Assembly: GCF_005771425.1 (NCBI RefSeq)
Contig: NZ_VBTZ01000001.1
Location: 1-64,000, forward strand
Direction of reading: 5' to 3'
Length of the DNA: 64,000 bases
Source of the DNA: Methylocystis sp. B8
GTDB lineage: Bacteria; Pseudomonadota; Alphaproteobacteria; Rhizobiales; Beijerinckiaceae
In this document: positions 5,191-63,299 of the stretch, piece by piece
Numbering within the stretch: position 1 is the stretch's first letter
How the letters are laid out: each line of letters begins with the position of its first letter
The notes under the pieces: generated by a model
Database searches by the model: none
What the model saw: the letters and a program-made list of their open reading frames with translations, nothing else
Told to the model about the DNA's origin: nothing
Program-made: the position numbers and the translations under genes

Positions 5191-6003
5191 ATGTCAAAAG
5201 AGCCGACCGGCCTGGACGCTGATTTTTTCGTCTCTCCCGCGGAGCGCGATCCGATAAAAGCGACGCGCGAACCGGCGCGCGCCCTGCCGAAACGCTTCTA
5301 CAAAGAGGCGGTCGCGGGGCCGGCCGAAGGCGGCTACGGCGTCTTTCTCGATGGCCGGCCGGTCAACACGCCAGCGCGGCGTCCCCTGGTTGCGCCCGCG
5401 CAGCCGCTGGCGGAGGCGATCGCCGCCGAATGGGCGCGCCAAGGCGAAACAATCGATCCCGCAACAATGCCGCTCACGAAGCTGATGAATACAGCGCTTG
5501 ACGGGATCGCCGCGCAAATGGCTGAGGTCGAAGCCGAGGTCGCCAAATATGTCGCCTCCGACCTTATCTGCTACCGCGCCGGAGAGCCTGAGGGCCTGGC
5601 GGCCGCCCAAGCCGCTGCTTGGGATCCGCTCATCGCCTTCGCCCGGGACAAGCTCGGCGCGAAGCTCGCGCTCGCGGAGGGCGTCATGTTCATCGAACAG
5701 CCGCAGGAGGCGCTCGACGCTATCGCGCGGGCTTTGCGCGAATATGTGGGGGAGGGCGCCGGCGCGCCGCTCAGGCTCGCGGCGCTAAACGTCATGACCA
5801 CGCTCACAGGGTCAGCGATCATTGCGCTTGCAACCGCGCTTCACCGGATAGATGCGCGCTCGGCCTGGGATGCCGCCAACGTCGACGAAGACTGGCAGAT
5901 GCGCGCTTGGGGCGCAGATGATGAAGCCATGGCCCGACGGTTGGCGCGTTTTCGGGAGTTTGAGGCGGCGGCGACTCTGTCGCGCCATTCCACGCCCGAC
6001 TGA
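5191..6003 (+). CDS. ATP12 family F1-ATPase assembly chaperone
   Basis: 270 residues matching the ATP12 (AtpAF2-type) family. The N-terminal region contains KRFYKEA and a segment with [15 protein letters not shown], typical of the family; the middle has the conserved [10 protein letters not shown] and DLICYRA segments, and the C-terminus carries the conserved [10 protein letters not shown] stretch. In mitochondria ATP12 protects the free alpha subunit before F1 assembly; in alphaproteobacteria the homologue is widespread and presumed to act similarly in the cytoplasm. It lies between the RluC-like gene and the nuo operon, with a 185-bp gap before nuoA that probably holds the nuo promoter. Confidence 0.88.
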
Positions 6004-58980: not shown

Positions 58981-59115
58981 TCAGGCGTTGGTCATCTCGC
59001 TGACGATGGCCTCGGCGGCCGCTGCGGGATGGGCCGCTCGCGTAATCGGCCGGCCCACGACGATATAATCCGCGGAGGCCGCGATCGCCTCTCTCGGCGT
59101 CATCACCCGCTTTTG
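58981..59115 (-). pseudogene. pyrF: 3' fragment of host pyrF
   Basis: Encodes the orotidine-5'-phosphate decarboxylase C-terminus from [14 protein letters not shown] to the stop at 58981, including the phosphate-loop motif VVGRPITRA. Reading upstream it enters the mobile element at the terminal repeat. An ATG at 59223 within the element could give an 80-residue fusion, but that would lack all N-terminal catalytic residues (Asp/Lys). Excision of the element with one copy of CGCTTTTG joins it in frame to the 5' part at 62734-63299. Confidence 0.95.
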
Positions 59116-59140
59116 CGGTATTATGTAGCTGATGCAAGTC
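59116..59140 (+). repeat. Left terminal inverted repeat
   Basis: 25 bp beginning CGGTATTATGTAGC and ending GCAAGTC; perfect reverse complement of 62709-62733. In the orientation of host pyrF it contains an in-frame TAG within 12 nt of the right-end junction. Confidence 0.95.
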
Positions 59141-59286
59141 TCAATCATTTTAGATAGTTGCCTGAATATCTGGTTTAATATCAGCGCGCCGAATGGAACC
59201 AGAACATTCATAGCGACATTCATGCTGGACTCTATCTGATTGTGGGTCTATAAGCTCTGTCGACGCCGTTAGGGGCCGACACACGC

Positions 59287-59808
59287 ATGTCAGATCAGCT
59301 AGACGATATCATCGATGGAGCCTTTCCTTCATTTAAGGAGGCGCTAACGGCGGCATTCGAGGCCGGCCGCGCGGCGGGGCGGCAAGAGGCGTCCGTTGAG
59401 CTTAAGGCGAAATTGGCGGACGCTCTTGGAATCCAGCAAGCGCCAGATCGCAGCTTCGCGAAAAAACTCGTGGGACAATTGGTTGAGACCACGCGTGCGG
59501 CACAAGGCACCGTCAAGCCAAAGATATTGGAAGCCATTCGCTCGCGAGGTGGAGCCACGTTGGGCGATATTCAAGAAGCGACAGGAGTTAAATATAATAC
59601 CGTCAGAGGGACGCTGTGGCAGCTATCACAAGACGAAGTGATCGAGAGGCGCGGCGAAAAATGGTTTATGCGCCCGCAAAAGAATGAACCCGCAGGCACG
59701 CCGTCCGAAAGTGCGCCTACGGGTTCTAAGCCGGAGCCTTCGTTTCACGAGGCTCTTTTCGGGTCCGGAGCGAAAGGCCGTGAAGCCGGTCCGGGGGGTG
59801 AGACATGA
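59287..59808 (+). CDS. Winged-helix DNA-binding protein of the element (A)
   Basis: 173 residues, ATG at 59287. A winged-helix region (SRGGATLGDIQEATGVKYNT then GTLWQLSQDEVIERRGEKWF) occupies about residues 85-130. The N-terminus is a charged helical region with EAGRAAGRQEASVELKAKLA; the C-terminal tail is Pro/Ser/Gly-rich and disordered. It reads like a MarR/PadR-type or replication-control HTH. A sister with similar architecture sits at the other end of the element (62196-62666). Function unknown; a role in regulating transposition is inference. Confidence 0.75.
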   Translation: MSDQLDDIIDGAFPSFKEALTAAFEAGRAAGRQEASVELKAKLADALGIQQAPDRSFAKKLVGQLVETTRAAQGTVKPKILEAIRSRGGATLGDIQEATGVKYNTVRGTLWQLSQDEVIERRGEKWFMRPQKNEPAGTPSESAPTGSKPEPSFHEALFGSGAKGREAGPGGET

Positions 59809-59830
59809 GAAGATAGCTTCTAATGCTCAG

Positions 59831-59863
59831 AACGGTCGCCATTGCGTTGGCGTGGCGACCGTT
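59831..59863 (+). terminator. Perfect 10-bp hairpin before the tRNA-like fold
   Basis: AACGGTCGCC (59831-59840) and GGCGACCGTT (59854-59863) pair fully around a 13-nt loop, 22 bp after the stop of winged-helix gene A. No T-tract follows. It could end that transcript or belong to the downstream RNA. Confidence 0.45.
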
Positions 59864-59867
59864 CACT

Positions 59868-59937
59868 GGGGATAGCAGGTTCGCCGGACGGGACCCTCAT
59901 CAAGTTCAGCCGACGGGTTCGACTCCCGTTATCTCCA
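59868..59937 (+). ncRNA. tRNA/tmRNA-end-like RNA fold
   Basis: A 7-bp acceptor-like stem GGGGATA (59868-59874) with TATCTCC (59930-59936, one G-T pair), and a perfect T-arm ACGGG-TTCGACT-CCCGT (59913-59929) that matches the TTCRANY T-loop rule. The 3' end continues ACCC. Only 38 nt separate the two, too short for normal D and anticodon arms, so this is not a standard tRNA. It resembles the 3' end of tmRNA (ssrA) and could be a captured ssrA/tRNA fragment or attachment-site remnant. Confidence 0.45.
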
Positions 59938-59969
59938 CCCTTTTCCCTAGCAGAATCAGAGAATCCTGT

Positions 59970-60212
59970 CTACATCGCTCCGTCCTTTTCTGGCGGCGCG
60001 AACATGACGCCACATGTCCCATTTTCAGCGACAAAGCGCACCCCGCGCTGCTCCAGAACAGATTGAATTGCCGATAGATTATTCCCTATCGGAACGCTTC
60101 GTCCCTTCTCAAAATTCCGGACCGTCGAAAGCCCGACCTTCGCGGCTATCGCCAAGTCGTCTTGAGAAATATCGAGAAATCCGCGAGCTGCGCGGCACTG
60201 CCCCGGCGTCAT
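59970..60212 (-). CDS. XRE-family regulator of the element
   Basis: 80 residues, ATG at 60212. Helix-turn-helix with ARGFLDISQDDLAIAAKVGL and STVRNFEKGRS, then a short C-terminal dimerisation part ending RGVRFVAENGTCGVMF. It diverges from the transposase gene; the intervening 114 bp hold opposed promoters, so it probably represses both itself and the transposase. Confidence 0.8.
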   Translation of the reverse strand: MTPGQCRAARGFLDISQDDLAIAAKVGLSTVRNFEKGRSVPIGNNLSAIQSVLEQRGVRFVAENGTCGVMFAPPEKDGAM

Positions 60213-60218
60213 GCGATA

Positions 60219-60294
60219 CAGATAGCGCCAGCATCAAAAACCGTCAAGACAAACGAAAATCGTTATTGACACCCAAAATGCTAACACTTATCGT
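60219..60294. promoter_or_regulatory. Divergent promoters between XRE gene and transposase
   Basis: Plus strand: TTGACA (60266-60271), 17 bp, TATCGT (60289-60294) towards the transposase. Minus strand: TTGACG (60247-60242), 17 bp, TATCTG (60224-60219) towards the XRE gene. Both have ideal spacing. Related short motifs ACGAAAATCGTTATTGAC and ACGAAAATCATTTGAC near the plus promoter may be operator half-sites. Confidence 0.6.
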
Positions 60295-60326
60295 CATGTC
60301 TAACGAAAATCATTTGACTGACGCAG

Positions 60327-61280
60327 ATGGCCCAGCACTTCCTCCTTTCCGCCGGCGCCCGAAGCCTCTCACTGGCCAAGGTCGCGCGCATGACGGACGA
60401 AGACGCTCGACACGCTTTCCGGCTGATTCGCTGGGCGTCGACGGAAGGCCAGCCGGTTTGCCCGCGTTGCGGCAGCCTTGGCGTCTACGCACTCAAGTGC
60501 CGCCCGGCCTTTATGTGCAAGGGCTGCGATCACCAGTTTAGCGTCACGTCCGGCACTATCTTTGCCGACCGTAAGCTCCCCGTCCGCGACTACCTCTTGG
60601 CCATCGCAATTTTCGTCAACGAAGTGAAAGGCAAGAACGCGCTGGCGCTCTCGCGCGACTTGGACGTGCAATACAAAACCGCTTTCGTCCTCGCGCACAA
60701 AATCCGCGAATCCCTCGCCGCTGAGGTCGAAACCCTGCAATTGGCCGGAGAGGTCGAAATCGACGGCTGCTATATCGGCGGCCACGTCCGCCCCGCCAAT
60801 TACAAGGAAAACCGCAAGGACCGCCGCAAGCTCGTCAATCAGACGGGCAAGCGACGAGTCGTGGTTGCCATGCGCGAACGCAATGGCCGCACGCTTCCTT
60901 TCGTGTTCAAGTCGGAAGGCGAGTCAGTCGAAACTATCGCCGAGCGCGTCGACGCCGCTGCTACAGTTCATGCCGACGAAGCTGCGCATTGGGACAAGCT
61001 GCACACGATCTTCCTGACGAAGCGTATCAATCATCAGCACGCTTGCAGCGACGGCGAGGCGTGCACAAATCAAGCTGAGAGCTTCTTCTCACGCATCCGT
61101 CGCGCGGAAGCGGGACACTTCCATCATCTTAGCGGCCCGTATCTCGCGGCTTACAGCCGCGAAATGGCGTGGCGCGAAGATCATCGCCGCGTCTCAAATG
61201 GCGAGCAATACCTGATGGCCGCGAACGCCGCCCTCACGCATCCGGTGTCATGCCAGTGGAAGGGGTACTGGCAGCGTTAA
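60327..61280 (+). CDS. IS1595-family transposase
   Basis: 317 residues. N-terminal zinc ribbon with CPRCGSLGVYALKCR and CKGCDHQF, then the ISXO2/IS1595 catalytic domain: first Asp in EIDGCYIGGHVRP, second in TVHADEAAHWDK and the third acidic/Asn position in CTNQAESFFSRIRRAEAGHF. This DDE-type enzyme makes 8-bp target duplications, as seen here. Its 3' end overlaps the convergent cargo pyrF by 47 bp. Probably active or recently so, given intact frame and perfect inverted repeats. Confidence 0.92.
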   Translation: MAQHFLLSAGARSLSLAKVARMTDEDARHAFRLIRWASTEGQPVCPRCGSLGVYALKCRPAFMCKGCDHQFSVTSGTIFADRKLPVRDYLLAIAIFVNEVKGKNALALSRDLDVQYKTAFVLAHKIRESLAAEVETLQLAGEVEIDGCYIGGHVRPANYKENRKDRRKLVNQTGKRRVVVAMRERNGRTLPFVFKSEGESVETIAERVDAAATVHADEAAHWDKLHTIFLTKRINHQHACSDGEACTNQAESFFSRIRRAEAGHFHHLSGPYLAAYSREMAWREDHRRVSNGEQYLMAANAALTHPVSCQWKGYWQR

Positions 61281-62046
61281 TCCCTTCGGCCAACGCTTCT
61301 GCCATTTCTCTAACAATAGCGCGCGCAGCTTCCTTAGGAGATTCAGCATTTAATATCGGGCGTCCTATGACAAGATAATCGGCACCGCTCTCAATCGCTT
61401 CTCTTGGTGTCATTACTCGCTTTTGATCATCCACGGGGCTTCCATCCGGTCTAATGCCCGGAGAAATGACCATGAGACGCCCTCCGGCAACGGCCTTGAT
61501 CGCAGCCGCTTCGACACCAGAAGCGATAACACCGTCTATTCCTGCCTCAAGTGCCTTCTTTGCCCTGTGAACTACTATGTCTTTGACCTTAGTGTTTAGC
61601 GGGTAGCCCATTTCCTCAAGGTCTTTTGCGTCCATGTTAGTCAATACAGTCACAAAGAATAGTTTTAGCTTAGACTCGCCCTTTCCTCGTACCGCGCACT
61701 CAAGTATACTACTAGTGCCGTGAACTGTGAGGAAATCAATTTCTAATTCTGCGGCTCTCCGCACTGCATTTTCAATGGTATTCCCAATGTCATGATACTT
61801 ATAGTCGAGAAATACCTTCTTGCCCAAGCCTTTAAGCTGTCTTGCAAAAGCCCCCCCATCTGCAAGTTGCAGCCCTAGCCCAATCTTATAAAATTCAACC
61901 TCATCCCCTAGCGTTTTTACTAGGGCGCGAGCCTCATCTATCGTGTCGAAATCAAGCGCAACGATTAGACGGCTACGAGCTTCATTGATTTGTTGATCAC
62001 TGACAACATTCATATCGGGTCGAATCAATTCGGCCACGGCTGCCAT
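61234..62046 (-). CDS. pyrF: Cargo orotidine-5'-phosphate decarboxylase (intact pyrF)
   Basis: 270 residues, intact. Catalytic motifs: Asp in RLIVALDFDT, the Lys of FYKIGL and the active-site KVFLDYKYHDIGNTI, DFLTVHG, and the C-terminal [15 protein letters not shown] with VIGRPIL. It makes UMP from OMP, the last step of pyrimidine synthesis. Base composition is clearly more AT-rich than host genes, implying a different origin from the split host copy. The last ~17 residues are extra compared with the host enzyme and overlap the transposase end. It presumably supplies the function lost by insertion. Confidence 0.93.
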   Translation of the reverse strand: MAAVAELIRPDMNVVSDQQINEARSRLIVALDFDTIDEARALVKTLGDEVEFYKIGLGLQLADGGAFARQLKGLGKKVFLDYKYHDIGNTIENAVRRAAELEIDFLTVHGTSSILECAVRGKGESKLKLFFVTVLTNMDAKDLEEMGYPLNTKVKDIVVHRAKKALEAGIDGVIASGVEAAAIKAVAGGRLMVISPGIRPDGSPVDDQKRVMTPREAIESGADYLVIGRPILNAESPKEAARAIVREMAEALAEGINAASTPSTGMTPDA

Positions 62047-62195
62047 CTCTTACGCTCCAGATGACCTGCCCCAGGATGAACGCGGGATACGCTGTATCGA
62101 CGCGATTTTGGGCTGGACGCGCGCGCGACGAGGCAGATTCGAAGCCGAGTTCTGCATTAGCCCGAATCATAAAGCAAGCCTTTACTGCGTTGAAA

Positions 62196-62666
62196 TTACG
62201 GCTCAGACTCGCATCTCTGCAGTATCGTCCAAAAAAGACGCCCATCTTCGTCTGGGGTCCCGACGAGTAAGCCACGGTCTCTTAACCGTCTTAGGGTTCT
62301 CGAAATCCGCTCCGTTGCGTCTGACAGAGCCTTCCTGTCTGCCGGGTCTTGTCCACAATTTTCGAGCGTTTTTCTGGCGATCTCCCTAGATGACAGCGGT
62401 TGAGTTTCCTTCAATGCGTCAAGTATGAGTTTTACGGCAGCGCCATAATTTATGATTGGCGGACGTTTTTGTTTGGGCATTAGCAGGTCGAGATTGGCCT
62501 TACACCCAAGACTCACGAGTATGCGGTCGAGAGCCGCCACGTCGTTATTTATCTCAGCTAAACGGTCACGTATCCGCTCGGCCTCGCCAAATAGCTCTGC
62601 CCGCCTCTTGAGCAAGCCGGAAATCGTGTGCTCATATGTTGTGGTGCGAGCGAATTTGTTTGCCAT
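62196..62666 (-). CDS. Winged-helix DNA-binding protein of the element (B)
   Basis: 156 residues from the ATG at 62666 (an upstream start at 62717 would run into the terminal repeat). A coiled-coil N-terminus (LLKRRAELFGEAERIRDRLA) precedes a winged-helix domain with TQPLSSREIARKTLENCG and ATERISRTLRRLRDRGLLVG. Arrangement resembles protein A at the left end though sequence similarity is low. It may bind the element ends or regulate cargo. Unknown function. Confidence 0.7.
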   Translation of the reverse strand: MANKFARTTTYEHTISGLLKRRAELFGEAERIRDRLAEINNDVAALDRILVSLGCKANLDLLMPKQKRPPIINYGAAVKLILDALKETQPLSSREIARKTLENCGQDPADRKALSDATERISRTLRRLRDRGLLVGTPDEDGRLFWTILQRCESEP

Positions 62667-62708
62667 GCACCTATTGTCGCAAATAGGCGGACTAATCGCC
62701 ATTTCGGC

Positions 62709-62733
62709 GACTTGCATCAGCTACATAATACCG
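62709..62733 (-). repeat. Right terminal inverted repeat
   Basis: Begins GACTTGCATCAGC and ends AATACCG; perfect mirror of the left end. Beyond 25 bp the two ends diverge. Flanked outside by the target copy CGCTTTTG at 62734-62741. Confidence 0.95.
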
Positions 62734-63299
62734 CGCTTTTGGTCTCCGACATCGGCGCCCGCCGGTCGCACCCCCGGCGTCACGAGCAGCATGTCAGAGC
62801 CGACGATGGGACGAACGGTCGCGAGTTCCATCGGCGACAGAACAAGACCATCGACCCGCTCCTCCTTCGCCTGCTTTGCCCGGCGCGCAACCAGTTCGGC
62901 GACGCCGCAGGCATAACCTGCTTCCTTGAGATCGGCGTCGTCATAGGAGGTCATCACGGTCACGGCGAGGAGCTTGAGCGCGCCGTCCGACGCGCCCTGA
63001 CGGGCCGCCGCCATCGTCTGAGGGAAAGCGTGGATAGTGAGAAAATCGACGCCGAACCGGGCGATTTGGCGCGTTGCACGCTCCACGGTGACGCCGATGT
63101 CATGGAGCTTCAAATCGAGAAAGACGCGCTTGCCGGCCGCTTTCAGTTCACGCGCGAAATCTAAGCCGCCCCCCGTATAGGCGAGCTCCATGCCGATCTT
63201 GAAGAAGGAGGCTGTTTCGCCGAGCGCCGTAACCAGCGCGCGCGCCTCGTCGACGCTTTCAACGTCAAGCGCGACGATCAGGCGCTCACGCGCTTTCAC
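62734..63299 (-). pseudogene. pyrF: 5' fragment of host pyrF
   Basis: Starts at a GTG at 63299 overlapping the upstream methyltransferase stop (GTGA). It encodes RLIVALDVES, FFKIGMELAYTGG, KRVFLDLKLHDIGVTVERA (catalytic Asp-Lys-Asp region) and TPGVRPAGADVGDQK, then hits the element; translation through the terminal repeat ends at a TAG (62721). With the fragment at 58981-59107 it reforms a 230-residue enzyme of normal length. Confidence 0.95.

Follow-up and report, generated by a model that had tools for sequence, protein, structure and literature searches.

An IS1595-type transposon in Methylocystis that splits pyrF at its QKR codons and carries a foreign pyrF

Loss of pyrF should lead to auxotrophy, in keeping with the established role of the gene. 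How, then, can a transposon be tolerated inside it? The question is raised by Methylocystis sp. B8, in which a 3,618-bp element of the IS1595 family (59116-62733) lies inside the host pyrF within a window of 64,000 nucleotides, the whole stretch of DNA analysed here (contig NZ_VBTZ01000001.1, positions 1 to 64,000). The element contains a complete pyrF of its own and is best interpreted as a self-complementing transposon that chooses its sites. According to this reading, to which a probability of roughly 0.72 is assigned, it is a passenger-carrying IS1595 transposon from a clade that favours fixed codons, and its branch uses the QKR codons of pyrF and brings a foreign pyrF that takes over orotidine-5′-phosphate decarboxylation.

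The interrupted gene and its cargo counterpart

Host pyrF is interrupted at the codons QKRVMTP, and the direct repeat CGCTTTTG (8/8 match) is found at 59108-59115 and 62734-62741. The region is composed as follows (ORF, open reading frame; aa, amino acids).

58981..59115, minus strand: host pyrF, C-terminal part from QKRVMTP to the stop, including one duplication copy
59108..59115, no strand: left target-duplication copy CGCTTTTG, 8 bp; empty site in congener G036
59116..59140, plus strand: left terminal inverted repeat, 25 bp; end-profile score 24.5, from a profile built partly from the window's own ends
59287..59808, plus strand: left-end ORF of 173 aa, with a weak match to DUF3489 that stays below cut-off
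59868..59940, plus strand: tRNA-like RNA that resembles tmRNA in its acceptor and T-arm part but lacks the mRNA part; Rfam RF00023, E 9.4e-8, below the gathering score
59970..60212, minus strand: small helix-turn-helix (Xre-like) protein, 80 aa; weak match, below cut-off
60327..61280, plus strand: IS1595-family DDE transposase, 317 aa (Pfam, NCBIfam)
61234..62046, minus strand: complete cargo pyrF of 270 aa; the 3′ ends of this gene and of the transposase gene overlap by 47 bp
62196..62717, minus strand: right-end ORF, 173 aa, winged-helix-like (weak); ATG within the terminal repeat
62709..62733, minus strand: right terminal inverted repeat, 25 bp, by complementarity to the left end
62734..62741, no strand: right target-duplication copy CGCTTTTG, 8 bp
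62734..63299, minus strand: host pyrF, N-terminal part, GTG start assumed, including one duplication copy

The inverted repeats (59115-59140 and 62709-62734) are 100% complementary across 26 nt; as the outermost of these bases belongs to the flank, the terminal repeats are perfect over 25 bp. The first-pass annotation, made from the sequence alone, had described an element with exactly these dimensions, and its length, repeats and 8-bp duplication were confirmed to the base. Its further proposal that excision restores 693 bp of coding sequence holds as arithmetic, since 558 + 8 + 127 = 693 bp, from the assumed GTG at 63299 to the stop at 58981, remain once the element and a single repeat are removed. 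In G036, the closest congener examined, which shares 95.5% identity with the window across two flanking genes, the host pyrF is uninterrupted and represents the empty site. Both parts of the window gene are open and align to the G036 gene without gaps inside the gene, sharing there just 8 bases, CAAAAGCG; one reference in this alignment held 8 bases of the element end, which the aligner placed elsewhere. A lone terminal-repeat-like sequence with two mismatches is present elsewhere in G036 (contig C16, 18522-18544; L152), and no element gene was found around it.

The cargo gene is full length (OMPdecase, 2.8e-55, in Pfam; NCBIfam pyrF equivalog, 254 bits against a cut-off of 193). Alignment with the solved enzyme 3tr2 revealed that the DxKxxD, PGIR, DQKR and GRPI stretches are retained, which we take to be the catalytic and phosphate-binding parts. 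As had been claimed, the cargo is compositionally foreign, with a G+C content of 48.8% (43.5% at third positions) compared with 64.5% (74.9%) in the host N-terminal part. In a PyrF tree of 38 rows, the cargo forms one clade (100/100) with the M. rosea cargo described below and with genes of G320, G180 and G045, outside the clade of 16 host genes of the genus; tree and composition together rule out a duplicate of the host gene. Between the two cargo genes, nonsynonymous divergence (dN) is 0.30 and synonymous sites are saturated, which shows that the cargo protein is constrained. The cargo enzyme presumably works in vivo, and the cargo would have arrived before or with the insertion. In the genome of the strain itself (3.41 Mb, 26 contigs, 100% complete), pyrF was matched three times, by the cargo gene and by each of the two host parts, and the further host pyrF that the annotation had named as contrary evidence was not found there. 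Among congeners, 36 of 38 have a pyrF match, the remaining two genomes being 66% and 64% complete, and pyrF was matched on both sides of the site in all 15 congeners whose locus was fetched (including G036, G005, G024, G004 and G022).

A second insertion was found in Methylocystis rosea SV97 (G006), where the order at the locus is dnaK, dnaJ, methyltransferase, right-end ORF remnant, PyrF, a P63C-domain ORF and a decayed terminal repeat. This PyrF is 65% identical in amino acids to the window cargo. The decayed repeat (two mismatches to the degenerate pattern) borders directly on CAGAAGCG and the C-terminal part of the host gene, and the base and orientation of the insertion are identical to those in the window. 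The locus retains the cargo gene and has lost both the transposase and the N-terminal part of host pyrF, and no other full-length pyrF was found in M. rosea SV97. This arrangement suggests a lock-in, in which dependence on the cargo would have become permanent after the element and the host remains decayed. A host tree of 13 taxa, calculated from methyltransferase and flanking glycosyltransferase DNA, places the window with G036 on one side of a branch with 100% support; M. rosea pairs with G005 (support 99), and M. rosea, G005, G024, G004 and G022 form a group at 100% support. Given this tree and the pyrF matches on both sides of the site in G036, G005, G024, G004 and G022, the two insertions are most simply taken as independent. 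The part of the earlier claim that concerned the breakage and replacement of pyrF is upheld, with the cargo as the sole intact pyrF found and with the same base struck, most simply, twice.

The cargo-type pyrF is also the sole pyrF match in genomes of three other genera (L109, 2010-2756; L110, 6000-6749; L082, 8630-9409). Two of these genes are located at the native dnaJ-methyltransferase locus; element remnants were not found, and the three genes are possible end states of the same replacement. Third or fourth pyrF insertions in G320, G180 or G045 were rejected, as no terminal repeat or leftover host part was found there. For candidate split pyrF genes in other family members, 11 genomes were re-searched, of which 8 gave matches (G236, G204, G108, G336, G301, G218, G208 and G339); in the first four at least one piece each starts 5 bases or less from a contig start, which is read as an assembly break. 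In the one-contig genome G339 (L161, 7008-7352), the sole pyrF match covers approximately the first 40% of the protein. Among plasmids, 17 records contain a transposase relative (E 1e-40), all below 60% identity, and 42 contain a pyrF (E 1e-20), the best listed being 47% identical; the cargo-type gene was not among the 20 listed.

Target sites across the transposase clade

Bacterial genomes were scanned by transposase similarity, blind to target, which gave 54 loci. Elements were regarded as two-ended when both ends were recognized by the end profile and the duplication matched in at least 7 of 8 bases; 36 loci belong to this class, 13 have a repeat but no confirmed pair, and 5 have no repeat. 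The duplications are perfect in 35 of the 36, and 23 of the 36 elements are located at five positions in two gene families, the family-2 glycosyltransferase and comM.

First glycosyltransferase site, 9/36: family-2 glycosyltransferase, with the H of GG(T/S)S(N/T)H as the point where the duplication begins
Second glycosyltransferase site, 4/36: same gene type, DYP motif
First comM site, 7/36: DEL(P/A)EF motif
Second comM site, 2/36: comM
Third comM site, 1/36: comM

Two further one-ended elements among the 54 are also at the first glycosyltransferase site. The start base of the duplication is identical in all cases at this site (10 compared) and at the first comM site (7), and the DYP site shows two registers one base apart. 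Opposite orientations occur at one and the same base (L028 versus L029; L053 and L055 versus the other comM cases). On a tree of 50 transposases, on which three changes may represent one gain and two losses, 10 changes are required for the first glycosyltransferase site (well-supported branches force at least 9 of these) and 5 for the first comM site. The same target recurs in distant transposases, and sister transposases are found in different genes. Single-target labels are hardly or weakly clustered (142 and 15 of 500 shuffles as low), but all target labels together are somewhat clustered, with 25 changes against a shuffled mean of 30.6 (0 of 200 shuffles as low). A transposase lineage that strictly decides the target is ruled out by the sisters that differ in gene, and lineage has some influence. 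Tolerance alone cannot produce recurrence at a single base, and the presence of two or three sites per gene suggests that selection or a gene-level preference also acts.

Cases beyond the 54 loci come from G024, from G014 and G001 (one end seen) and from the window's own genome, the last three at the DYP site, and a comM insertion is present in G392. The case in the window's own genome (L138, 5845-9190, contig C12) is a second IS1595-type element, whose transposase is 54-55% identical. In G027, two different IS1595-type elements stand in tandem at the DYP site (L073, 1069-9230), with target copies around and between them. Elements were also observed in dprA of G027 and G018 (L140, 5455-9187; L141, 4781-8165), which are neighbours in the host tree and possibly share one insertion; together with comM, dprA makes two natural-transformation genes struck by the clade.

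Weighing the explanations

Under the preferred reading, the clade prefers fixed codons of a few conserved genes, and most of its recurrent targets (family-2 glycosyltransferase, comM and dprA) are expected to be dispensable. The branch seen in the window would insert in pyrF at the QKR codons while carrying a complete foreign pyrF. By taking over orotidine-5′-phosphate decarboxylation, the cargo would turn an auxotrophy-causing site into a tolerated home; the host would then depend on the element unless excision is precise, and decay of the element and the host remains would make the dependence permanent, as in M. rosea. If the other recurrent targets are dispensable as supposed, pyrF should be the only one whose loss causes auxotrophy. 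A cargo homologous to its own target was found in 1 of 33 elements, that of the window (tblastx, interior versus 1.5-kb flanks); the other self-matches involve a flank with another IS1595 transposase (L073) and two weak matches in L077 (40 and 38 bits). The best reading is that the cargo made the pyrF site survivable and that dependence follows from this; the dependence may in turn benefit the element.

Several observations weigh against this reading. The closest transposases (G018 and G024, 91-92% identical to that of the window) belong to sibling elements that carry another cargo and are inserted in a glycosyltransferase gene. The 25-bp end of the window element is matched 100% at one end of each sibling, and the backbone DNA is 84% identical from the vicinity of the Xre-like gene up to and including the transposase. 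At the place of pyrF the siblings carry a 193-aa protein (without a Pfam family in the G024 copy), and at the place of the left-end ORF a P63C-domain ORF, which also occurs in the M. rosea remnant. The cargo can thus be exchanged, the fixed targets are several with pyrF among them, and the idea of an element type specific to pyrF does not stand; the first-pass annotation had listed copies without pyrF or at unrelated sites as evidence against its claim, and this was partly borne out. Furthermore, 13 of the 36 two-ended elements are located elsewhere, so that the preference is strong and not absolute. No shared DNA motif was found beyond an A+T-leaning 8-bp core, and guide-like matches are at background: for 25 targets, the longest exact match to the own interior is 9-12 nt, against a mean of 9.5-10.9 for other interiors, in a test that covers contiguous matches and from which short split guides would escape. 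The cargo-type pyrF of G320, G180 and G045 has no detectable element remnant, so that this gene type also exists free of elements. Finally, there are just two pyrF cases, and the second is decayed, with its junction to the host N-terminal part deleted and the transposase absent.

The cargo is the only intact pyrF found in the genome, and a lock-in is seen in M. rosea, as would be expected if the element gained by host dependence on its pyrF and its use of the pyrF site had evolved for that purpose. Such selected addiction is nevertheless unlikely, because precise excision would be harmless and the site-choosing habit is common to relatives without matching cargo. No toxin was recognized in the element, in which the antitoxin-like match of the 80-aa helix-turn-helix protein is weak and below cut-off; any host dependence on the element would be metabolic. 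Of the self-complementing or addiction-like strategy proposed at first pass, the lock-in that it predicts is seen in M. rosea, and addiction is weakened, since excision, if precise, would give back the host gene without cost and only imprecise loss would be costly.

A tolerated accident, in which a pyrF-carrying element landed in pyrF by chance and remained neutral through complementation, without any fixed pyrF site, is quite improbable. A cargo pyrF would indeed make pyrF insertions survivable, and the cargoes of siblings and relatives are mixed. The relatives carry a DNA methylase with an Mrr-type nuclease domain (L029, 6957-8711), an NYN-domain gene (L058, 7145-7786), a Tle1-like phospholipase domain (L028, 7033-8313) and a dCTP deaminase-like domain (L035, 6887-7783), and a Pfam match was absent in 6 of the 10 interior proteins scanned. 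However, the same base was struck in two host lineages and the clade repeatedly inserts at fixed codons, which argues against chance. Chance or mis-annotation was discounted in view of the empty site in G036 and the insertion in M. rosea.

One ancestral insertion common to the window species and M. rosea, precisely excised in the lineages between, would account for the same base, orientation and terminal-repeat type and for the related cargo, but it is very improbable, as it requires precise losses in G036, G005, G024, G004 and G022, where the pyrF matches span the site at this locus, the element DNA (76% identical between window and M. rosea) is more diverged than the flanks (83-86%), and the host parts in the window are open and gap-free against G036 inside the gene.

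The wider statement that a clade of DDE transposons has a programmed preference for exact codons, and that one of its branches opened a conditionally essential gene by means of a foreign working substitute, stands at about even odds. If this wider statement is true, it would describe a strategy of target-matched cargo at the end of which a transposon-borne homologue has taken the place of a core host gene for good. A natural series of before, during and after, in which a foreign gene carried by a transposon replaces a core metabolic gene, is formed by G036, the window species and M. rosea. Since the sites recur, the way in which a small DDE transposase picks its target is directly testable, with possible use as a tool for site-directed insertion, and the insertions in comM and dprA place the clade within the conflict of mobile elements with natural transformation.

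Further contents of the element and known systems

The transposase matches DDE_Tnp_IS1595 (PF12762; 2.4e-40, 138.5 bits) and Zn_ribbon_IS1595 (PF12760; 2.2e-10, 40.8 bits), both above cut-off, as well as the NCBIfam IS1595 transposase NF033547 (127.7 bits, cut-off 75). The 8-bp duplication and terminal inverted repeats characteristic of IS1595 are documented by the repeats and by the empty site in G036. As in passenger-carrying IS1595 elements (tIS), a gene unrelated to transposition, the cargo pyrF, is placed between the transposase and the right-end ORF. Sequences similar to the 80-aa Xre-like protein and to the right-end ORF are present at 15 and 19 of the 54 transposase loci, respectively. 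A short stretch upstream of the cargo, 62125-62211 on the minus strand, weakly matches RNase P, with E 0.046, well short of the gathering score; similar letters precede the M. rosea cargo, for which Rfam reports nothing at E 0.5.

The tRNA-like RNA is 73 nt long with tmRNA-type ends, and ARAGORN made no call for it. Rfam also finds it in L113 (5566-5641) and L112 (5574-5646) and does not report it for L029, for L046 or for L081, the stretch from M. rosea; by alignment it is present in L028 (about 5536-5610) and L032 (about 5578-5652). Across these five elements, every one of the 35 acceptor-stem cells is paired, and three acceptor pairs show compensating changes on both sides. The third pair is always G-U, a mark of alanine acceptance. 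The outermost T-stem pair fails in 4 of the 5, and single-sequence folding is no better than shuffled (z -0.4 to -1.0, three sequences). The T-arm core occurs 9 times in 173 kb of element sequence, spread over 8 of the 43 stretches (the end of one, L112, being assumed), compared with 2 times in 346 kb of flanks. The RNA is possibly an alanylated tRNA mimic.

Several known systems share one feature or another with this element. Prophages and integrative elements such as e14 in icd insert at the end of a gene and restore it. The likeness is that the inserted element repairs the function it breaks; the difference is that an integrase swaps the gene end there, whereas here a whole foreign gene is carried in a DDE transposon and the host parts remain split. 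Tn7 inserts downstream of glmS, and its fixed target lies beside a conserved gene. Tn7-like elements at attTn7 thus resemble the present clade in the fixed target, the conserved gene and the tandem arrangement of different elements at one site; in contrast, Tn7 spares glmS, and no TnsABC- or TniQ-type protein was recognized among the five main ORFs of the window element. Guidance by an RNA of the IS110 bridge type is not supported, in that no contiguous interior stretch of the 25 elements matches its own target above background. To our knowledge, target specificity is not a formal criterion of the IS1595 family, so that membership stands despite the site choice. In the open literature searched, no account was found of IS1595 elements that target fixed codons, nor of a transposon that replaces pyrF, in line with the first-pass annotation; IS1595 elements with passengers are known, and the reuse of exact codons or the rescue of a broken gene is apparently new.

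The nearest relatives in kind are the IS1595 passenger elements, which share the DDE transposase family, terminal repeats of approximately 25 bp, 8-bp duplications and passengers (PMC5704250). According to the same source, the mobilisable passenger elements MTnSag1 and tISCpe8 integrate with low specificity (PMC5704250), whereas the clade described here reuses fixed codons and the window cargo matches the broken target. Disruption of the competence genes comM, comYC and comEC by mobile elements has been described (Croucher et al. 2016, PMC4774983), and the recurrent comM insertion at an orthologous place is shared with the present clade, in which dprA is struck as well. In that account, the elements are integrase-bearing, those in comM having a CF65_00446-like integrase (PMC4774983), whereas the elements of this clade are DDE transposons that are found also in the glycosyltransferase gene and in pyrF.

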